A stretch of DNA of 64,000 nt from positions 8,176,741-8,240,740 of the forward strand of contig NC_133224.1 in assembly GCF_040436345.1 (NCBI RefSeq), read 5' to 3'. The notes under the pieces are model-generated. The model saw nothing but the letters and a program-made list of their open reading frames with translations. It was not told the origin of the DNA and did not search any database. Source of the DNA: Pagrus major. Lineage: Eukaryota > Chordata > Actinopteri > Spariformes > Sparidae. The number at the start of each line of letters is the position of its first letter. Position 1 is the stretch's first letter. Both the position numbers and the translations under genes were made by a program. Positions 3,860 to 64,000 of this stretch are shown one piece after another.

Positions 3860-27029
<23,170 letters not shown>

Positions 27030-37675: not shown

Positions 37676-40600
37676 ATGGCGCTGAGCCGTCTGGAAAAGC
37701 TTCAGGTATGGCTCTTCAAGGCGTTCATGGACGCCCTGTTCGCCCTCTTCCGGCTCTTCGCCCCGCTGAGAGCCGGCGTGTCCGGGAAGAAGCTGCCGCC
37801 CGTCGGCGACCCGCTGCTGCTTCTCTCGGCGACGCAGCTCGCTAAGAAGATCCGACGGAAAGAGGTGCGTACCCGGGCCGAAGCGAGCGACGACTGCGGC
37901 CGGACGGAGGGAGCTTTAACGTATTTAAGTCAAGCCGAATGAATAAGCACTTCCTCGTTCACTACTTTAGGTTATTGCTTGTTTACAATCGTAAAAGTTA
38001 TATAAGCAGTTAGCTGTTCGTCTTTAAATCCTTCTTGTTTTCAACGTGATTTTGTTTTTTCAACAACAAAAACCTCATTATAGTCAAAGCTAGGTCCACT
38101 CTCTGCGGGTCTAATCCCCACAGGTTAAATGTACAAACCTGATAAACGAGACAGTAGCACCTGTGGGATATACACACACCTGTGCTTCTTAGCCATGCAA
38201 TAATTAATTAATTAATTAATAATAATGTCTTGAGACAGTACAGTTTTCCATACCATTATAAGGCTATACAAGGCTTATAGGGTGCAGCACTCTCAGATAA
38301 AATGACTGTAAAATACATACTGTGAATAGAGGATGTTACCTGGTTTTATTTATTATGTTTTTTACTTTTTAACTCAGAATTTTAATACTAAAGACATTAA
38401 TGAGGTAATAATACAAACTTAGAAATATTTATTAGTTCCATAACTGAATAAACAAGCTGTTCTCAGAGGAAAATAAGGTCCCCAGAACACAGTTTGAAGC
38501 TAGAAAGGTGGCAGGGTCCGCCAAATATAATCAAAGTCCTTTAAGGTCAGTTTGTTTATTCAGTTTATTCAGTCATGAAAGCAAAGAGAGTTTGTTTATT
38601 TAGTTTGTTGATGATGAAGGTCTTACTCTTCTCAATGAAATTACTACATACTGCTCCTTTAAAGCCTTATATATAGAAGTAATATATATCTTCATATTTT
38701 TAAATCTCCTCAAAAACCCTTCATAAATGCTACAACTCGGTGACCAAATCAAATATCACTATATTCTTGACCAAGTACCTCGTTATTGTGACAATATTAC
38801 CAAGATGACCACTGGATGTTTCCTGGGACATTACTCGCACATTATAACCACAGCCACGCCTGTTTTGGACTTTATCTGGAGGTGTGAATTGTTTTACTTG
38901 TTATTCTGGTCTGAGTCTGTGTGTGTGTGTGTGTGTTACCGATCACAATACATGTTTATATAGTGTAACAGTGGTGTTTCTGGTTTCTCAGGTCTCCAGT
39001 GTGGAGGTGGTGCAGGCTTACATTGACAGGATCCAGGAGGTCAACCCTCTTCTGAACGCTGTCATAAAAGACAGGCAAGAAAGACCCTCCTTCTCTGATG
39101 GCTTTATGATAATAGATTAATTGTTTTTGCTCATTTGTTAAGCAAGAGGTTGCTCAAAATGTGAGGAATTGATGCGTTTCTTCGTCATAATTGATAGTAA
39201 ACTGAATATTTTTTGGTTTTGGAGCGTTGGTGGGACAGATGAAGACGTTTTATGATGTTATATTGGGTTTTTTCACTATTTTGAATGAGAAAATACTTGT
39301 AAACTGCGGCTATTGTGCTCCAGTGTTTCTTTTATTAATCATTATTCCTCCTAATGGATGTTTGGAGCAAAATTCTGACTTGTTTTAGTGCAGCCAATTA
39401 AGTTTTTTAGCAAAATTCTTTAAAAAAAAAACTGAAATTGGTTTCAACTCTGATGCATAATCTCAAAAATAAAGCCGTTTTAATCAGGATTAAAGCAGAT
39501 TTGGGTCAAATCAATTTTTCTTCCTCCGTCCAGGTTTGACGCTGCCCTCCAGGAGGCGGCCCAGGTCGACAAGCTCATCGAGGAGGAGACCGGTGGAGAG
39601 GAGGTGCTGGAGGACCGACTGCCTTTACTGGGAGTCCCACTCTCTGTCAAAGAGTCCTACGCCCTCCAGGGTAAACGCCAGAAATCTAATCTCCTGTCAG
39701 TCACATGAAACCATCAAATAACCAGCGTTTGAGCCAACATCTGATACTAGGAACATAGATCCACCCACACCCAGTTACTGTTTAGTGGAGGCGTTTAGAC
39801 TTCCTTGATTGCCACAAGATGAAACTTCAAAGCTGAAATGTATCTGTCAGTCTTTAGTATTGAGTTTATTTCGTGCTTCATTCAACATTTTTCCCTCCTG
39901 CAGGCATGCCGTTCACTACAGGTGTGATCTCCAGGCGAGGAGTCATATCCACTGTCGACGCTCCACCGGTGGCCCTGCTGAAGAGAGCAGGCGCCATCCC
40001 GCTGGGCGTCACCAACACCAGCGAGCTGTGTATGTGGTTAGAGTCCCACAACCACCTGTACGGCGTCACCAACAACCCGTACGACCTGGAGAGGATACCA
40101 GGAGGGAGCTCAGGTCAGCATCTGTTTGACGGGTTGAAGGGTGGACTCTTGATCACACGTTGTTGTCAAGCAGCGTTTATTCAGAGCAGCTTATTGTCGG
40201 AGTCGATCTCTTTGTCTCCAGGAAAGCAGCGCCCTGGTTATGCCTGATAATCATATTACACTGCAGACACACAAACACAGAGGCGCTGGCTCTGGTTCCT
40301 TAAAGGGGAACTCTTAAAGGGAAAGGCAGGTTTTGGATGCTTCTGTTGCAAATGTGAAAAAAGTTGTGTGAAGTTGCGAAGTCTGTTAAATTTGACTCAA
40401 ATGATCTGAGTCAGCACCAGTTGGGGCTGAAGACTACAAGCTTGAAATTAAAAAAAAAATCAACATGTGTGAAATAAGATGTGTTTACTCTGAGGGCAAC
40501 TGTTTTCAATTAAACAAGACTGATTAAAGCCGACCTGCCACATCCACCAGCTTATCTCTTCTCTCTCTCTGTGTTTATCTCCCTTCTCCTCCGCCTGCTT

Positions 40601-49400: not shown

Positions 49401-51420
49401 TTGAGGATGTCAGCAACCATCAGCACCCAGGGCTCTGAATCCACCGTGGCCAGCTGGATTATCTCAGACAGAGCCTCCTTCATCTGTGAAACAAAGGATA
49501 AACACCTTAGCCTGCATCAAAAGTTCCCAATCAGTTACTAACGTCTCACTATTCAAGAAATTAATGATTCTTGTTCATTCACTGATGATTAATCTTTGTG
49601 TTAATCTGTAACTTGTGGTGAGATGACGTGCAAAATTTGTAATGCAATCAAATCATCTCATATCAGTGCAAGAGGAACAACTGGGAGCAGCCACATTTCA
49701 AATGATTTTCTAGTACTGACCTGTACATTCAACTTTCCTTACTTTGCAAATTACTGCTCTGTTCTAACTTTACAACACAGAAGCGCTGTGCAATATTTAT
49801 AGACAAGCAACTATTCAGAAACTAGTGCCGAGTCCATGGGGTAAAGTAACTCTGTGCACTTTTTAAAGTTCAGTACTTAAACACAACTCTGAGGTGCTTT
49901 ACTTTAGTATTTAAAATGTTTTCTAGATACTTGCACTCAACTTTGTCTCAGAGGGAACTTTTTTCATCATTAGATGTATTTGACACATAGTTACTCCAAG
50001 ATTGCAGATAAAACACACGTGATCACCCAACATTAGCCCATTAACGGGCGAAAAAATATTCTACATTTGATAGAAGCTGAGATTGTATCTGCTTTATTAC
50101 TGTGTGTTTTACTCTCTTATGTGTATTCTGTTTTTATTGCTTTTAGCTTGCTTTATGTTTTATTCAGTTTTGGAGAGAGCTTTGCAACTGTGTTTTGAAA
50201 GGTGCAACATGAATAGTTTATTATTTTTGTTATATTTATTATTATTACTACTATAATCGGATTTAATTTTCATTCATTTTCTGACATTTTTTGAATAAAA
50301 CAGCTTATCAAGAAAATATAAGCTGTCAACCTTGGGCTCCAATTTTCTGAAGTTTAATAGACCAAAGCTGTAATCGCTTGATCAAGATTCTTATTTGCAG
50401 ATTAAAATCAACCATAAAAATAACCATTAGTTGCAGGATTGTAGTTCAAACTGCCTCCACTTTGCCCAGCTACAGCACAGCAAACCATCATTTTATTCTT
50501 GATTCATTTTCCTCTCAACTCTTCAGTACCAGGTCTCTTATCATGGGGCTTTTTACATTGATGTACTGTATCTACACAACATATTTGAACGTGCAGAGAC
50601 TAGTGAGACCTCAGCCCTGCAGAGGTAGGTCTTTATTCTCTGTTTAATACTCTGTCTGAATATGCAGGGCACACTGATGACGGGTGTCTAAACGTTTGAA
50701 CATCTAAACAAGTGATATGTCGGACTAGATGCTAGTACCGCCCTCCAGCTCGGGCTGTAGCTCTCCTGTGCCCATCCCACCATAATGTCTGTGCGGGCTC
50801 CGCTGGGCTACAGTCGCCCGCTGTGGCTGGTGAACCACCGCTGAAAATGCGCAATTATGGGTTAGCATCAGGTTAGTCGTGTAGCTGCCTAGCGTGAATA
50901 TTAATGCGTATGGATGCCTTTCTCTAAAAAAGTGAGGCGAAAGCGTCGCAGGAACAACATCAGCTCGTTTCTGACTTTAGCTAACGGATCTTTACCGCCG
51001 CCAGTAGTTAAAGACAGCAAGCTAATGTAGCTAATTGTGTTTAAGAGCTGGGTTTGGCGTTTCACAGGAAGTCTAAAACACACGCAGGAATAGCAGCGTT
51101 TTGGTGTGAAGCAACTAGCCGGAGATTGCGCGCTTTTCTCAGCTGTGTGTCTGAATTAATAGCGTAGCTCGCCCGTCAGGCTAACGGCGAGCTAACGCAC
51201 AGCAGCCCACCTCGTCCACGGTCCGCCGGGGGAGATGCAGCATCCCGAGCAGCAGCTTCAGCTTCACCGGCGGCGATAAGCTGGAAAAGCACAGCCGTAT
51301 GTTGTCGATTACTGACACGGTGAGGAGAGACGCGATGCTCGGAGGCGTCCAGAGCTCGTCCGTGGATCCCAGTTTGTTGTGAAGCCACAGGCCGGTGTCG
51401 CTGTCCTTCATCGACGCCAT
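46460..51420 (-). CDS. nelfa: Negative elongation factor A (NELF-A)
   Basis: Eleven exons on the minus strand: 51211-51420, 49312-49483, 49035-49196, 48703-48792, 48390-48517, 48196-48265, 48007-48098, 47764-47872, 47298-47632, 47074-47173 and 46460-46644. They total 1653 bases, 550 residues (human NELFA is 528). NELF-A is a subunit of the four-subunit NELF complex, which with DSIF holds RNA polymerase II in promoter-proximal pausing. The N-terminal half (1-190) is near-identical to human: DTGLWLHNKLG, PWVLMVADILKSFPETGSLN, PNVQDILGELREKVGECEAS and KRKPKSATLRAELLQK; this part contacts NELF-C. The middle includes LLDISELDMVGAGREAKRRR and a long Pro/Thr/Ala-rich tentacle (exon 9). The C-terminus keeps AAQEMFKTANKVTRPEKALI, IIQIKLSEHTE and TMLVDTVFEMN. 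The start has a strong AAGATGG context, which also fits a YY1 site. Confidence 0.98.
49825..50000 (+). repeat. Dispersed TACTTGAGTA-type repeat, diverged copy
   Basis: Contains GGGTAAAGTAACTCTGTGCA, AAAGTTCAGTACTTAAACAC and GAGGTGCTTTACTTTAGTAT. It is recognisable but strongly mutated, in nelfa intron 1. Confidence 0.5.
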
Positions 51421-51500
51421 CTTGGAAAAAGAAGTGCTATAAGTTCGGGCATTTTAACGGGCTACCTAAGAAAACAGTCAGGACCCCGCCCACACCGGGG
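51421..51500 (-). promoter_or_regulatory. nelfa: nelfa proximal promoter and 5' UTR
   Basis: GC-rich sequence with a CCCCGCCCAC GC-box (51484-51493) directly upstream of the nelfa start. Base composition falls to AT-rich within 50 bases beyond it. Confidence 0.45.
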
Positions 51501-53085: not shown

Positions 53086-55311
53086 ATGGCGTCCAGTGGA
53101 TATCTGCAGGCAGCGGTGCTCCTTCTGGCGGTGCAGCTCCTCTGCCTCGGTGCAGCTGATGCGGATCAGGAGACTGGGACTGTCATCCCTGCTGAAAGTA
53201 GGTGGATTTAAACAGTGTTCAGTGCAGGTTTTTTTTTAAAAAAAATGTTTGTTGAAATCAGCATTAATCACTGATAATCACACACTAATATTAGCAGGTG
53301 CCCCCACAGAGGTTTCCTGGGGGAATTGCAGGTCATTCTAATTGGTGTATACATGACAACATGAAAATGGGCCTGCCCCCTTTTTATTTCATCTCCTCTA
53401 GGTTATAAAAAAAAAGAGGTTTCAAGGCAAATACCTATGCTTTTGTTTTGATAATTAAAAATATCTCCAGTAAAATGAACACAATCAACATTTATAACAC
53501 CTTAAAGCAAGACAATGTACATTTTAAAAGGAATATTATGTAATCTTCCTTTTACAAATGAAAAGTTGAATTTAAAAGCAAGAAAAAAAAACACCCTCAC
53601 TCCGTTCAATACACTCAGGTTTTCGCTGCTACAGCCTTACTTGGTCTGGTATAAAAGCCACGCAAAATAATTCAGGGGGGTATTTACACTCAATCCATTA
53701 ATCTCTTTATTCTACTTACTTATTCTACTACTTACTCTATAATACTACTTGTACTGTTGCACCTCGAGCTGTTGTAACATGTGAATTTCCCCATTGTGGG
53801 ATAAATAAAGACAATCTTAATCTTAATTCTGTGATTTCTTTCCTCTTATATTAAGGTCGCCCATGTGTGGATTGTCACGCATTTGAGTTCATGCAGAGGG
53901 CACTGCAAGATCTAAAGAAGACCGCCTTCAACCTGGATGCCAGGGTGAGTTACGTCCGACACAATCCTGTCATGAGGCCTCTGATTATTACCCTTGTTAT
54001 GATTTTATATGGCATGCTCTACATATGCCATGCAATTAAAGTGATCGCCTGCTGATGAGTCTTTTAAGCAACAATTACTGATGATGGTGATTTTGTTTTG
54101 GACAATATGGCCTTAAAATAATATGATAATAAACAATATATATATTAATATTTTGAAATCTCCTCAAAAATCTACTTCATACCTTGATATTAATTCTACG
54201 ACAATATTGTACTGATGACAGTTGGTTATTATAGTTTCACAAAATAATAATACAGTTGGATTTTTATCATTAATGTGGACGTAAAGACTATGTGGGTAAT
54301 TAAATCACTCTACTGTAATGCAGCCTTTAAAACCAGTACGACATATCACAATATAACGATATCCAGTCTTAGATGATATATAGTATAATATGTTTTATGC
54401 CTTTTTAATTATAATTTATTGTAAAAATTGTTATTTATTTGATAGCGTATTCAACAGGGATAATACAGATCAGCACTGTTACACAGGAAGACACAATGCA
54501 ACAGATATAATGTTTATCGGGTGTCTAGCTGAAGCCAATTTCCAGCCATCGTCCCTGGTAAAGGTTTTTAAAAGTTAAAGTTGAAGAGGACGAGTAATAA
54601 TATTAAAAAAGAAAACAGGCAAAAAACCTAAAAGAAACAACTGAGATGTGTTGTTATATATGTGTATTATTATAACAACATAAAGTATAAAACAGTTATA
54701 AATGTCCTAATAACACAACTTTAAAATGTAAATTAATATTTTGTTATTATAATTCAGCTTCATTTAGTGACCAATTCTTCTTTTAGCATTTATCTACTCG
54801 ATGTTAAAATGGTGAACTCTTGCAGTAAGTTGGTGAGTTCAGCATAGTTTATTCAAGTGTATACAAGTAATAACAATGATTCGTCTATATGTTTTATCAG
54901 TTAACCCAATAATCACTCATATATTTTTAAATGTAAACATTCAACATACTATTTCTAGTGTCAACAGTGAACCTTTAAACTCAATAAGTAATATTTTACT
55001 TTTATCTTTACTTTTGTCTTTTCTTGAATTATTGGTGACTGATGCTCAGTTCTACCATCTTCAGGAAAATAATCTGCAAATAGAAACTGTTTAATTACTT
55101 AAACGCAGAGGGGTTGGGTGACTTTTTCAGCCTAGAGTCGTATCTGTGGTGTTCCTAAGAAGTTGCGTACAGCCACAGCTACTTCATAGTTCCTCAGTCG
55201 GTGTTTACACGCATTGACATGTTGTCTTGTCCTGTGCAGACGGAGATGCTGGTGCTGAGGGCGGAGAGGAGGGCTCTGTGCGACTGTATGCCCACCAACT
55301 CGCTGCGCTGA
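53086..55311 (+). CDS. nicol1: NICOL1 / C4orf48-type small secreted signalling peptide
   Basis: Three coding exons: 53086-53197, 53856-53944 and 55240-55311, giving 273 bases and 90 residues. Residues 1-24 are a signal peptide (LLLAVQLLCLGAA). The mature part begins near TGTVIPAES and carries the family's hallmark RPCVDCHAFEFMQRALQDL (39-57), then LDARTE and AERRALCDC. Human C4orf48 (NICOL1) is a secreted brain and testis factor; the 39-83 region is near-identical by eye. Cysteines are 41, 44, 81 and 83. The human equivalent of Phe62 (KTAF here) is, as I recall it, a cysteine, so this protein keeps only two CxC/CxxC pairs. A 5' UTR joins at acceptor 53062, probably from a non-coding exon ending 52845. 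The gene is divergent from nelfa, its human neighbour as well. Confidence 0.96.
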
Positions 55312-58660: not shown

Positions 58661-58780
58661 GATTGTTCATAGCTTAATAAGGACACTGAGACAAATATTG
58701 AATTTCGTCATGTCAAGAGCTTTTATTTGATCCCATCACTGTAAAACATGGCCTCAGTTGGTTTAAATGCTGAAATGCTC

Positions 58781-58786
58781 TTTATT
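58781..58786 (-). terminator. Poly(A) signal of acidic gene copy A
   Basis: AATAAA on the minus strand inside a probable non-coding last exon whose acceptor (CTGCAG) is at 58851-58856, exon start 58850. The corresponding site of copy B reads AAGAAA. Confidence 0.6.
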
Positions 58787-59182
58787 GTAGTCATCATGTG
58801 GTCATCATGTCGACACCTGTGGTGCTGAAGATCAGGTGTTAGTTGGAGAGCTGCAGAGGAAGAGCAGATACAGATACACGTGAGTAAATAGACTACAAGA
58901 TGTGAGCTTAAATGTTTTCTTATAGTTTTCTGTGAGATGTTCAGTCAGATCCTAATTCTGTCTTCATTAATAATGGAGCAGATAAAAAAATAGCGCCTGT
59001 TATGACAACACAATATTTGATAGAGTAAGATATGGCTCTGTGCTGTACCATGATGTATGGCCGTATTGTACATACTTATACCTACAAAAGTAAATGAAAA
59101 CTAATACTAAAAGTATGAGAAGAAATGATGCATACTTGTGACTTACAGGCAAGATGTTGTGAGGGATTCAGCCTTGTCAGGT

Positions 59183-59675
59183 TCAAAGGAAATTCCATGT
59201 TGGGCTCATCATCTTCCAATCACTCCCCGACCCTTCAACAACGTCCTCCTCTGGCTCCGACCCTTCAGTAGCGTCCTGCTCTGGCTCCGACCCTTCAACA
59301 GCGTCCTCCTCTGGCTCCGACCCTTCAACAGCGTCCTCCTCTGGCTTTGGCAAATCAACTTTAACCTCATCATTGATGGCTGTTAGAAAGACATGTAATT
59401 GCATCCATTAAGAAAGGTCAGATACTCAAACAGTTGTCCCTTTAGTCAAAGAACTTATCCAGTTTTGTAATTTTATATCGAGAAATCACACAAAACACTG
59501 ACAAGAGGTGACATTGCATCAATGCATACGACACATCTGGTGCACATACCACTTTATACTTGACATCAGAATTTATCATCAAGTTACCTTTGGCTTTAGC
59601 AGAATCATCTGCTGATGGTGCTGCACTGAGCGCAGCCACAAAGGCACAGGCCAGCAGAAGAATTTGGATCTTCAT
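59183..59675 (-). CDS. Small secreted acidic repeat protein, copy A (family not recognised)
   Basis: Coding exons on the minus strand are 59588-59675 and 59183-59379, joined in phase 1, giving 94 residues. A non-coding first exon (59792 to about 59848) and a non-coding last exon (58850 to about 58760) are suggested by good splice sites. Residues 1-19 (MKIQILLLACAFVAALSAA) are a clear signal peptide. The mature part starts PSADDSAKAKAINDEVKVDLP and contains four near-perfect 10-residue repeats of the SEPEEDAVEG type, so it is strongly negative and probably extracellular. The tail GSDWKMMSPTWNFL is in a different frame from copy B at the same site. Phase-1 splicing argues against the SCPP mineral-protein family, whose introns are phase 0. 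The stop is 36 bases before the last junction, within the range tolerated by nonsense-mediated decay. I know no family match. Confidence 0.72.
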
Positions 59676-59871
59676 TTTCTGAAAGGAAACATAAAAACGT
59701 ACAAAAATACTGTGAAATGGTCCGTGAGTATTTAGTGACAGATTCTGTTCAGTCTGTGGGTCTGACAGAAGAGTAAAGGTACCGTATTTACCTTCAGTTT
59801 TCACTAGCTCTCAGGTCCAAAGGACTTCAACTCAAGTCAGGAGTGTTCTGACCTTCCAACTGATGCCCCTT

Positions 59872-59880
59872 CAATATATG
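59872..59880 (-). promoter_or_regulatory. TATA box of acidic gene copy A
   Basis: ATATATTGA on the minus strand, about 30 bases upstream of the presumed start near 59845. The first-exon donor AAG|GTAAATA is at 59790-59792. A TATA promoter suits a tissue-specific, strongly expressed secreted product. Confidence 0.55.
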
Positions 59881-59884
59881 TGAA

Positions 59885-60683
59885 CTTCTGAGCTAGGAAT
59901 GTTTGTTCGGTAACAAAGCTCATCCAATGAAAGTTTCCACATTTTTTGCTAGTCTGTGACAAACATGCTCCGAGGCAAATGATGTAGTGCACAGCCACCT
60001 TCCGTGCAGAGACACGTATTGACACCAAGGATCAACTGAACAACTGTATTTTATTTCATTTATATCAACTATTCATGTTAAATACTGATCAGGTGGAAAT
60101 TATGTTTGGAAGTCCCTCTGTGAAAGCACGAGAAGCCGACTGGCATTTATTGTACAGCCTTGGCTTTTGATTGAGTACTCCACTAAATCACACAATAATT
60201 TAAGGTCATTAACATTTCTTTTGGAGAAAATAATCACGTCATAAGCCGGCAATTAAATCAGAATTTGCTAACTTTTAGACACTCTTATGCTGTTATACGC
60301 CAGCAATTGGTACAATTATGGCTACAAAGGTTTCTGACTTATAACAGTTAATAACTTCTTTTCAACTCTTACTGCTTTTTGCTAATGCTCTGAGGTTTGA
60401 GCAAATTTGCTGATGAACTGGCTGATCTGGTTTCAAATGATGACGTCATTCAGAGCACCACACTCTGAGAGCAGCAGAGGCAGTCGGTGTTTCGCGGACA
60501 CAGAATATCAGTCCTAGATAAATGCGATAACTGTGGACTGAACGTTGAATTCACAAATCAAGAATGCGCTGTTGTTTTTCTGAAGTTATCGTAGAGGAAT
60601 TAGTCCTTGTCGATGTGTTGAAATGTTCTTCATCTTTACGTAACATTAGACAAGCAGACATATTTAGCTGTTTTATTTTTCTA
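59885..60683. other. Upstream flank of acidic gene copy A
   Basis: AT-rich, with no exon seen. Minus-strand open frames here are short and without domains. Confidence 0.55.
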
Positions 60684-60726
60684 TTTTACGAGTTTGAAAG
60701 GCGGACGACCTTTCAAACTCGTAAAA
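60684..60726. repeat. Perfect 18-bp inverted repeat with 7-base loop
   Basis: Arms 60684-60701 and 60709-60726 are exact inverse complements (TTTTACGAGTTTGAAAGG and its complement), loop CGGACGA. It lies about 100 bases before a Penelope-like fragment and may be part of that element's terminal structure or a separate palindromic insertion. Confidence 0.85.
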
Positions 60727-60824
60727 GTTAGGGTACATAGTATTGTTCTCACTACAACCCTATGTCGGCTACACTGCTTCAGTTCTAGCAAACAGTCAAG
60801 TTAGCATTGGTAGTCGATCCAAGA

Positions 60825-61178
60825 GACGGAGAGAGGATGGAGACAGAAGCCTCAACATTGAGGTGTACAGAAAACCTACACACACAGATCAGTACTTGCT
60901 GTTCGACTCTCATCACCCACTGGAGCACAAGCTGGGGGTCATCAGAACCCGACCATCGGGCTGAGACCGTGCCCACTAAGTCAGGGGAAGGAGAAGGAAC
61001 AGAAGAACAGCAGGGGAGCACTTAAAACCTGTAGCTACCGAAACTGGACCTTTGTCAAAACTGCTAAAAGATCCAGAGCAGACAGAGAGGAGAAGAAAAC
61101 ATAACAACATCGTCATTCCCCATGTCGCAGGAACATCTGAAAAACTCAGGAGGATCTTTAATAAACATCATATCCTGG
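60825..61178 (+). mobile_element. Penelope-like retroelement fragment (RT C-terminus and linker), broken
   Basis: The frame at 60825-60949 reads SLNIEVYRKPTHTDQYLLF then DSHHPLEHKLGVIRT, a hallmark of the end of Penelope-like reverse transcriptase. After a frameshift near 60950 it continues as HRAETVPTKS, then NWTFVKTAKRSRADREEK and, from 61103, NNIVIPHVAGTSEKLRRIF with NKHHIL, the segment leading to the GIY-YIG domain. Frameshifts and in-frame stops make it a dead copy. It ends where a hAT-like terminus begins. Confidence 0.85.
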
Positions 61179-61620
61179 CAGAGCCAGGCCTCGGCATAGG
61201 CTGTATAGGCGAATGCTAAGGGTGCCATCATCCACGGGGGGCGCCGCAAACAGGGGGAGAAAAAAAAAAATTACTATTTTTTACCAGTGCTATTACAACT
61301 ATTATTTCAAAATATTATATAAGCCCACAACAACATAACTTCATAGCAAAGCCTATTAAATAATGGATAGGCCTTTTTCTGGATTCCTGGCTGGCTCGTC
61401 ACATTGTACCTGCCCTCTGTGAGGGTGGGGAGCGGGGTCGAGAGGCGAGTTGCCTGAATCTGACCGGACCGTGACCCAAAGACCAAGAGAGAGATTTATT
61501 AATACTGTAGCAGAATCACAATGTCCAAAAGACTGAAACCATCCGGCGCCCAGGGAAGGAAAAGAAGGAAAGAAGAGAAAAACATGAAAATATATACACA
61601 CATATATACATATTTATATA
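61179..61620 (+). mobile_element. hAT-like transposon, 5' end only
   Basis: Begins CAGAGCCAGGCCTCGGCATA, resembling the terminal repeat of a common fish hAT group, and runs through GGTGCCATCATCCACGGGGG. From 61521 it opens MSKRLKPSGAQGRKRRKEEK, an N-terminus typical of ZMYM/hAT-type transposase proteins. The frame is cut at 61620 by the Tc1-like element, and the 3' part is missing. An 8-base target copy cannot be checked because the far end is absent. Confidence 0.6.
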
Positions 61621-62258
61621 CAGTTGCAATCAAAATTATTCAACCCCCACTACAAATTAGGTTTATTGGCAACACGTACAAACTAGCAGCTGTTTGCAAT
61701 AAACAAATCAAACAAGAACAATTTAAATAGCTCAACACAACTAATATGACAAGTGGTTTCTCCAAATTCAACACAAAATGCCACTTTTAATGACTACTGC
61801 AGTCTCAAAATTATTCAACCCCTTGATGACAAGCATCTTTAGTACTTAGTAGAGCACCCTTTTGCTGTTATGACCTGCTGCAAACGTGATGCATAGGCAG
61901 AAACCAGCTTCTGGCAGCGTTCCTGAGGAATCTTAGCCCATTCCTCATGGGCAAAGGCCTTCCGCTCACTAATATACTTGGGTTTGCATGCTGCAACCGC
62001 CTTTTTCAAATCCCACCAGAGATTTTCAATGGGGTTCAAGTCAGGCGACTGTGATGGCCACTCTAGTATCTTCCAGGACTTCTTCTGAAACCAAGCCTTG
62101 GTGGACTTTGAGGTATGCTTGGGATCATTGTCCTGTTGGAAGGTCCAATGACGCCCAAGCTTCAGCTTCCTTACAGACGGCATGACATTTTCTCCCAGGA
62201 TTTCCTGATACTTGATTGAATCCATCTTGCCCTCCACACGCTGCAGGTTTCCAGTGCC
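61621..62258 (-). mobile_element. Tc1/mariner-like transposon, 5'-truncated
   Basis: The outer end is CAGTTGCAATCAAAATTATT preceded by TA at 61619-61620, the expected Tc1 terminal repeat and target. A second AAAATTATTCAACCCC block is at 61807-61822. The minus frame 61839-62258 encodes the C-terminal part of a DDE transposase: GTGNLQRVEGKMDSIKYQEI, WTFQQDNDPKHTSKS, then WPSQSPDLNPIENLWWDLKK with the third catalytic acid in the ENLWW block. The N-terminal half and the first catalytic Asp region are missing, because the element ends at the boundary of duplicated unit B. Confidence 0.9.
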
Positions 62259-62514
62259 AGAGGGCAACCCAGCCAGGATAAATCTGAGGCATGTACATTT
62301 GGGGAAAGGCCAGAAGGCAGTAATAGCACAATATATATACATATATATGTAAAACTACATGGATGTTTCCCAACCTTTTTTGACCCCCGCAGCCTTGTCA
62401 GAGGAGCACAAGCACCTCTTCATCGACACCACTCGTCATGTCTCACTTGAAACTGATTTTAAACCGGATTTTATGTAAACCTATGAATATATACAAGTGA
62501 ATATTATTTATTCT

Positions 62515-63215
62515 TTGTCCATTAGCTACCTTTATCTATTTTAAACATGTATCCAGTACTTTTAGCTAACTACGTGAGCTTTTTAGCCAATCATTTTTGC
62601 CAGCCATCTGAATTGTTTCTTGATTGCTTTTAGCTGCCATTTCCACGGTTTGCTTTTCACGCTCTAGCTAACTATTTCAACAGTGCATCCATTATGGTTT
62701 GCGAACCATTTGAAGTGTTTCGTTGTTACTTTTAGTGAGTCATTTGAACAGTTTTTTCATTTAATTTAGCTAATGATTTCCACCTTTTATTAATTACTCT
62801 CAGACCGCCATTTGGCCTTCATGACTTTTAGCTAACGTACCCTGTTTGTCCATTACTTCGCTAAAAATTTGAAATGTTTATCCGGACTTTTAGCTATCTG
62901 AACTGTTCTTACAATTACTTTTAACTCAATATTTAAACAACCACCACTGCTGATGAAAATCAAGCTGATGTGGCTCAGGCACAAATGTTCACAGATGAGG
63001 TCATGTTTAAAGTTGTGTCACCTTAAATGAATTACTCTTATCCATGACTTTTAGTTAGGTTACCCTGTTCATCCATTACATAGCTAACCATTTCAAATGT
63101 TTATCCAGAGTTTAGCTACCTGAACTGTTTTTATAATTACTACTTATTCATTTGTTTATTCAGCACTTTTAATTAACCATTTCAACTGTTTCATTACGTA
63201 TAAGAACCTACTGAC
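62515..63215. repeat. Degenerate tandem array in unit B
   Basis: Same TTAGCTAACTATTTCAAC / TTTATTCATTACTTT words as the array in unit A, with more units. The length difference is part of the growing offset between the two segments. Confidence 0.7.
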
Positions 63216-63778
63216 GTGACTGATTGTTCATAGCTTAATAAGGACACTGAGACAAATATTGAATTTCGTCATGTCAAGAGCTTTTATTTGATCCCATGAC
63301 TGTAAAACATGGCCTCAGTTGGTTTAAATGCTGAAATGCTCTTTCTTGTATATCACGTGGTCATCATGTCGACACCCATGGTGCTGAAGATCAGGTGTTT
63401 GTTGGAGAGCTGCAGAGGAAGAGCAGATACAGATACACGTGAGTATATAGACTACAAGATGTGAGCTTAAATGTTTTCTCATAGTTTTCTGTGAGATGTT
63501 CAGTCAGATCCTAATTCTGTCTTCATTAATAATGGAGCAGATAAAAAGATAGCGCCTGTTATGACAACAGAATATTTGATAGAGTAAGATATGGCTCTGT
63601 GCTGTACCATGATGTATGGCTGTATTGTACATACTTATACCTACAAAAGTAAATGAAAACTAATTAAATAACTGATTTAGGGGAAAAAATATACATTTTT
63701 GGAAAAGTATGAGAAGAAATGATGCATACTCGTGACTTACAGGCAAGATGTTGTGAGGGATTCAGCCTTGTCAGGTTT

Positions 63779-64000
63779 TTAATTAAGAGGGTTAGGCTCA
63801 GCCTCATCATCTTCGGATTCCTCGTCCATCTCAGGCTCATCATCTTCGAAATCCTCGTCCATCTCAGGCTCATCATCTTCGAAATCCTCGTCCATGTCGG
63901 GCTCATCATCTTCGAAATCCTCATCCATGTTGGCCTCATCATCTTCTAAGTCCTCCTCTGGCTCCGACCCTTCAACAACGTCCTCCTCTGGCTCCGACCC
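63779..64000 (-). CDS. Small acidic repeat protein, copy B (partial, 3' part)
   Basis: The last coding exon enters from beyond the right edge and ends in a stop at 63779-63781, leaving 73 visible residues. It begins GSEPEEDVVEGSEPEEDLED, shared with copy A, then has four 11-residue DEPEMDEDFED-type repeats, and ends SEDDEAEPNPLN. Nearly every residue is Asp or Glu apart from Pro, Met and Phe; there is no Lys or Arg. The donor CTTGCCT|GTAAGT is at 63739-63741 and the non-coding last exon starts at 63409, as in copy A. Signal-peptide exons should lie right of the window. Function unknown; calcium or cation binding outside the cell is a guess from composition. Confidence 0.7.
   Translation of the reverse strand, partial: GSEPEEDVVEGSEPEEDLEDDEANMDEDFEDDEPDMDEDFEDDEPEMDEDFEDDEPEMDEESEDDEAEPNPLN

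Follow-up and report, generated by a model that had tools for sequence, protein, structure and literature searches.

A five-copy tandem array of genes predicted to encode a secreted, highly acidic repeat protein in Pagrus major

The array and its gene models

Five tandem copies of a small gene, A to E, lie at C10:8.2345-8.2588 Mb in Pagrus major, and the window (the whole stretch of 64,000 nucleotides of DNA that was analysed) reaches only the edge of this array, with copy A the sole copy complete inside it. A preliminary description had recognised a pair of genes here; the pair proves to be part of a set of five, and the interval given for it, 59183..64000, misses the end of copy A exon 3 together with exon 4 (about 58700-59182). 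The count comes from a tblastn search with the 29-residue signal-peptide exon as query and the window, C10:8230001-8290000 and C10:8290001-8300000 as targets, in which five distinct full matches were obtained and the next best match across the window and C10:8230001-8300000 had an E value of 1.4. Genome searches returned no further copy of the gene beyond A-E. Among the neighbours read (NELFA, NICOL1 and a NAT8L-like ORF), NICOL1 flanks the array on one side and the ORF, which we take by eye to be NAT8L, on the other.

Each copy consists of an untranslated exon 1, a signal-peptide exon 2, one acidic repeat exon 3 and an untranslated exon 4. No copy differs from the others at any of the six inferred splice sites, as would be expected if splicing occurs at these junctions, and at these sites the signal-peptide exon, with 88 coding nucleotides, would join the repeat exon in phase 1 in every copy. 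Likewise, the AATAAA signal and the exon 4 acceptor are present in 5/5 copies. The common exon layout and phase-1 splicing of the preliminary description are thus borne out and extend to five copies in exons, splice sites, phase and AATAAA. A coding last exon was considered and is ruled out by the stop codon that terminates exon 3 in all five.

In copy A, on the minus strand, the untranslated exon 1 spans about 59792..59848, its 5' end being estimated from a TATA-like CATATATTG (59880-59872) that would lie some 25-30 nt above it and its donor, AAG/GTAAAT, being identical in the five copies. Exon 2 (59588..59678, minus strand) comprises a 3 nt leader, an ATG at 59675 and the signal peptide region MKIQILLLACAFVAALSAAPSADDSAKAK up to its phase-1 end, and exon 3 (59147..59379, minus strand) comprises AINDEVKVDLPKP, 10-residue acidic repeats, a deletion and a frame-shifted tail, with a stop that ends at 59183 and the donor CCT/GTAAGT. 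The untranslated exon 4 (58700..58850, minus strand; 3' end estimated) follows the acceptor CTCTGCAG/CTCTCC and holds AATAAA at 58727-58722. A second possible acceptor, TTTTGTAG, lies inside the 3' intron at window positions of about 59088-59081 in copy A, and its use would alter the untranslated end only.

Copy B, also on the minus strand, enters the window with the 3' part of its exon 3 (63741..64000), which carries the last part of the 10-mer array and then 11-residue repeats and EAEPNPLN before a stop ending at 63779; the far end of this exon, at C10:8241096, corresponds to position 64356 and is outside the window. Its untranslated exon 4 occupies 63262..63409 (minus strand; AATAAA at 63288-63283; 3' end estimated), and its 5' part past 64000 has the same layout as copy A. 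An upstream (promoter) region, 59871..60400 on the minus strand, is common to the five copies, B-E having 97.9-98.5% identity with A across its 530 bases. When the sequence upstream of A and C was scanned for motifs, one M-CAT-like site and neither MEF2 nor CArG boxes appeared.

Repeat structure and composition of the proteins

The open proteins measure 221 (B), 254 (C), 254 (D) and 185 (E) amino acids. In each of these four, Glu-rich 10-residue repeats are followed by Asp-rich 11-residue repeats (MDEDFEDDEPE), 2-11 of the former and 3-7 of the latter by pattern count, and a single frame runs through to an identical EAEPNPLN end. TRF delineates a 30-nt array in copy A (59227-59346, score 212) and a 33-nt array in copy B (63797-63955, score 234). 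The 10- and 11-residue repeats originally ascribed to both genes therefore need qualification: the 10-mers are found in A and both types in B, but A has no 11-residue repeats. Copy A lacks the second half of the repeat exon, a deletion having fused its 10-mer array to the frame-shifted tail; without 11-mers it is consequently the least representative copy, and it is probably a decaying member of the array.

Assuming a cut after residue 17, Asp and Glu together make up about half of the mature chain in B-E (101/204 residues in B, 114/237 in both C and D, 78/168 in E) and 24/77 in A, and the charge at pH 7 is -96 for B, -105 for C and D, -69 for E and -19 for A. The mature chain has no cysteine. 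The two zones of B-E differ in character: the 11-mer zone has a net charge per residue of -0.53 to -0.65, a D:E ratio near 1:1, Met in every unit and Phe in most, and the 10-mer zone has a net charge per residue of -0.22 to -0.40 with Glu in excess of Asp. By the charge-hydropathy line, all five proteins class as disordered. AlphaFold, run on the single sequence of copy A (the one without 11-mers), gave one helix at residues 3-17, corresponding to the signal peptide, and coil elsewhere, at a mean pLDDT of 61, low confidence being expected for such input. Composition and exon 2 thus agree with the initial recognition of a strongly acidic repeat protein whose N-terminus resembles a signal peptide, and its assignment to no recognisable family also stands, Pfam giving 0 matches for A, B and E and a PDB search with E giving no family (best chain, E value 0.37). 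S/T-x-x-E/D sites number 5-15 per protein. A peptide precursor cut at dibasic sites was considered and rejected, there being no K/R pair in the repeats and a single KK in the tail for C, D and E.

Divergence among the copies

Duplication of the five genes is recent. Copies C and D have 14 differences in 2455 columns, on which ground a simple assembly copy was rejected, and the pair may derive from haplotype duplication. Exon 2 has 0/91 variable columns among the five copies, and 51/1171 are variable in the pooled distal-upstream, intron and downstream sequence. With the latter as yardstick, the chance of 0/88 variable coding positions is 0.02; with introns 1 and 2 alone (11/321), it is about 0.05. 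Exon 1 (1/73) and exon 4 (8/151) are not clearly slower than the introns, and downstream DNA among B-E also has 0/148 variable columns. The conservation test for exon 2 is weak, and gene conversion could be a source of the sameness of the copies. Indels of whole 30- or 33-nt units hold the frame automatically, so that a kept frame proves little.

These data bear on whether the array is simply a non-functional amplified segment, a decaying locus duplicated in tandem whose open frames have merely been retained. The truncation of copy A and its 39 private changes, part of which sit in its badly aligned truncated exon, against 13 in E, 9 in B, 5 in C and 4 in D, are in keeping with decay, and given that the copies are young, open frames need not reflect selection. 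Nevertheless, four of the five copies are open at full length, exon 2 is invariant and the splice sites are kept, and we regard this explanation as very improbable.

Predicted function and relation to known acidic proteins

The explanation that we favour, at roughly even confidence, is that the array encodes a secreted, intrinsically disordered, cation-binding polyanion whose capacity is set by array length and gene number. The signal peptide, as judged from sequence, would route the chain to the secretory pathway. The mature chain would stay unfolded and bind divalent cations, most likely Ca2+, through its charge density, with weak binding on the Glu-rich 10-mers and stronger binding on the Asp-rich 11-mers. 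Since capacity would depend on array length and gene number, slippage by 30- or 33-nt units and tandem gene duplication would shift the dose with the chemistry unchanged; recent tandem duplication would have raised that dose, and selection may have acted on dosage. The earlier suggestion of calcium or mineral binding is a guess, narrowed here to the Asp-rich 11-mer zone. According to PMC8391695, Ca2+ binding by disordered proteins relies on dense charge, Asp being better than Glu and hydrophobic residues apparently being required, and Glu-only chains bind little Ca2+. The predominance of Glu in the 10-mer zone, set beside that part of PMC8391695, counts against the binding model.

Bulk negative charge might alternatively outweigh metal binding altogether, the product being a lineage-specific secreted filler or decoy of egg, mucus or gut that serves as osmolyte, lubricant or binder of cationic peptides. 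Wide variation in repeat number would be expected if charge alone counted, but B-E all retain both the separation of a Glu-rich from an Asp-rich Met/Phe zone and the terminal EAEPNPLN, although these copies are young, and we consider a filler unlikely.

In SCPP genes, exon 1 is untranslated, exon 2 holds the signal peptide and the last exon is untranslated, and the untranslated first and last exons shared with many of these genes, taken with an acidic, probably disordered and secreted product, raise the question of a starmaker/SCPP-kind mineral or otolith matrix protein, phosphorylated by Fam20C and steering crystal growth. The array side of this likeness is read from DNA alone. The portions of PMC4260845 used here describe medaka Starmaker-like (Stm-l) as highly acidic too (D 16.9%, E 20.4%, pI 3.81) and count Stm among the SCPPs. 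However, PMC6732285 gives phase 0 for virtually all introns of SCPP genes, whereas the array genes have a phase-1 intron; the Fam20C motif S-x-E, as given in an extract of PMC10294482, has 0 sites in the five mature proteins; and basic residues amount to 2.5-5.4% in B-E versus 10% in Stm-l, as stated in the same portions of PMC4260845, which also ascribe highly conserved internal repeats to Stm and none to Stm-l. The array genes have, moreover, a single repeat exon each, no RGD in the proteins and no Pro/Gln-rich body. Starmaker and Starmaker-like proteins resemble the predicted products in being very acidic, disordered, secreted and expected to bind cations, and the regular 10/11-residue repeats, phase, motif and basic content set the array apart from their descriptions. 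Phase-1 splicing at the inferred sites and the absent S-x-E sites argue against SCPP/SIBLING membership, strengthening the case already made on phase and the lack of a Pro/Gln-rich body in the preliminary description, and a protein of this kind seems a poor prospect.

In walleye pollock, the aspolins of muscle are made as precursors with a signal sequence and an extreme Asp content, close to pure poly-Asp. An aspolin-type muscle protein, an acid-rich Fe2+ carrier with a signal peptide that promotes iron-mediated TMAO demethylation, would match the signal-peptide-like start and very acidic mature part of the array proteins. In place of poly-Asp, these have repeats that mix Asp with Glu and also contain Pro, Gly, Ser, Phe and Met, mature B having 35 D and 66 E among its 204 residues, and by this comparison of descriptions an aspolin is doubtful. 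AGARP, of coral rather than fish origin, and other Asp/Glu-rich disordered proteins share extreme negative charge with the array proteins, the likeness being one of description only. PMC12557392 reports that Ca2+/Mg2+ compact such a disordered protein rich in Asp and Glu, which speaks for the cation-binding model, and that AGARP undergoes this compaction on divalent ions with no gain of structure.

More tentatively than the polyanion model, the five genes can be viewed as a young, lineage-restricted family that arose between NICOL1 and NAT8L, has no relation to SCPP genes and encodes a secreted, two-zone acidic polymer, a metal-ion buffer whose genes are being amplified in tandem for dose. The novelty of the family is provisional, its copies being known from this one genome.

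Apart from a few points, the protein is of an ordinary kind. If expressed, the array would show that fish can arrive at secreted acidic polymers by a route outside the SCPP genes, and it would be a clean example of dose being altered through the number of repeats and of genes. The young copies, with C and D so little diverged, offer material for tracing how such arrays grow. Finally, aspolin has been associated with the formaldehyde that forms in fish during storage, and if the array proteins are aspolin-like, the array would supply a gene structure for a protein tied to that process.

Extent and setting of the array

The array of genes for this acidic repeat protein is real and compact; the protein itself is of an ordinary kind, and no family name is assigned to it. 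With the copy A protein as query, a search of the genome (786 Mb, 25 contigs; 51 of 51 candidates scored) gave 19 matches at E <= 0.001, all inside C10:8235926-8256578 (C10 being contig NC_133224.1), and a looser search with the 42-residue N-terminus at E <= 10 gave five candidates, the same five genes, both searches beginning with a quick first look that a very diverged relative could escape. It follows that the tandem pair of the preliminary description is the part of a larger array that lies at the window's edge. The five start codons stand 4.9-5.2 kb apart: A (ATG at C10:8236415, 94 residues), B (C10:8241409, 221), C (C10:8246524, 254), D (C10:8251674, 254), and E (C10:8256578, 185). The DNA of the repeated unit spans about C10:8234467 to 8258830.

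To the left stand the N-terminal exon of NELFA (window 51181-51453, minus strand; PF23553, E 5.3e-31) and, adjoining it, the neuropeptide-like gene NICOL1/C4orf48 (window 53086-55311, plus strand), whose first coding exon alone matches PF15161 (E 0.018, under the Pfam cut-off) and whose other two were read by eye. To the right, an ORF at C10:8264729-8265244, without a Pfam match, is presumably the start of NAT8L. Since the human gene order is NELFA-NICOL1-NAT8L, the array seems to be placed within an otherwise conserved interval. A Tc1-type transposase remnant in the A-B spacer (window 61839-62150, minus strand; Pfam DDE_3, E 4.6e-10) has its full-length DNA match in that spacer only; because 100-150 bp from its 3' end recur in the B-C, C-D, and D-E spacers, its insertion may have come either before or after the gene duplications. 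Elsewhere in the window are a protein kinase exon (12637-12915, minus strand; PF07714, E 1.4e-8) and an amidase exon (39864-40247, plus strand; PF01425, E 1.5e-19), the latter presumably of a fatty-acid-amide-hydrolase-type gene.

Gene anatomy and divergence among copies

As read from the DNA, each copy would begin with an untranslated exon 1 ending at the donor AAG|GTAAAT. Exon 2, ending at AAG|GTAACT, would hold the ATG and the signal peptide; exon 3, ending at CCT|GTAAGT, every repeat; and exon 4, untranslated, the AATAAA. None of the six splice sites differs among the five aligned copies. Pairwise divergence over aligned positions runs from 0.6% (C-D, 14/2455) to 3.6% (A-C, 69/1918). Exon 2 is unvaried (0 of 91 columns), while variation is seen at 51 of 1171 columns pooled from distal upstream, intron, and downstream DNA, a yardstick by which the chance of zero changes at its 88 coding positions is 0.02. 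The sequence evidence for constraint on exon 2 is nonetheless modest, because exon 1 (1/73), the exon 3 start (1/35), and exon 4 (8/151) do not stand out, the chance rises to about 0.05 with introns 1 and 2 alone as yardstick (11/321 variable), and downstream DNA among B-E is likewise unvaried (0/148). Gene conversion among copies could also produce such sameness. The repeat columns are the most variable (46 of the 306 that are free of gaps in B-E), in part because repeats align out of register. Within C10:8245000-8252500, C and D encode identical proteins from DNA differing at those 14 of 2455 sites, a likeness that may reflect a very recent duplication event, gene conversion, or an assembly in which one haplotype was duplicated.

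Both arrays of 10- and 11-residue repeats, earlier ascribed to the pair, are present in B, but A has no 11-mers. In the five-copy alignment A has lost these and the remainder of its 10-mer array, and its frame runs into an unrelated tail. Private changes number 39 in A versus 13 in E, 9 in B, 5 in C, and 4 in D, an excess consistent with A being in decay, even though part of it stems from poor alignment of its truncated exon.

Protein composition and predicted role

Proteins B-E share AINDEVKVDLPKP, then a 10-residue array rich in Glu, followed by an 11-residue one rich in Asp, and they all close with EAEPNPLN. By pattern count, ten-mers number 11 in B, 10 in C, 10 in D, 2 in E, and 3 in A, and eleven-mers 3, 6, 6, 7, and 0, respectively. 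With signal-peptide cleavage presumed to follow residue 17 (residues 15, 18, and 21 likewise satisfy the simple -3,-1 rule), Asp plus Glu make up 46-50% of the mature chain in B-E and 31% in A. None of the five mature chains contains Cys, an N-glycosylation motif, RGD, or an S-x-E site (the Fam20C phosphorylation motif). All five fall on the disordered side of a charge-hydropathy plot, and an AlphaFold model of A, run without an alignment, shows residues 3-17 as its one helix and the rest as coil, at a mean pLDDT of 61. Consistent with the earlier failure to recognise a family, A, B, and E have no Pfam match, and the best PDB chain for E reaches only E 0.37. Novelty is provisional, since the comparison among teleosts was confined to the Pagrus major genome.

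The poly-Asp composition of aspolin is not matched. Membership of the SCPP/SIBLING group fails on intron phase and S-x-E sites: the 88 coding nucleotides of exon 2 would place the splice in phase 1, in line with the argument of the preliminary description, and S-x-E is likewise absent.

A folded enzyme or ligand is unlikely for a chain so acidic, repetitive, and Cys-free. One study has disordered proteins binding Ca2+ through dense charge, with Asp favoured over Glu and hydrophobic residues apparently required, an Asp-Ser repeat peptide lacking them binding poorly (PMC8391695); another describes divalent ions compacting an Asp/Glu-rich protein with no structure gained (PMC12557392). In the 11-mer zone, Asp and Glu occur in about equal numbers, every unit has a Met and most have a Phe, and the net charge per residue is -0.53 to -0.65; the 10-mer zone has -0.22 to -0.40 and more Glu than Asp. 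By the rules of these two studies, the 11-mer zone would be the stronger cation binder. Taken with the character of the chain, this literature leads us to commit, with middling confidence, to a secreted polyanion that binds divalent cations; it may even so work in the SCPP/SIBLING manner, despite the two features at odds with that group.
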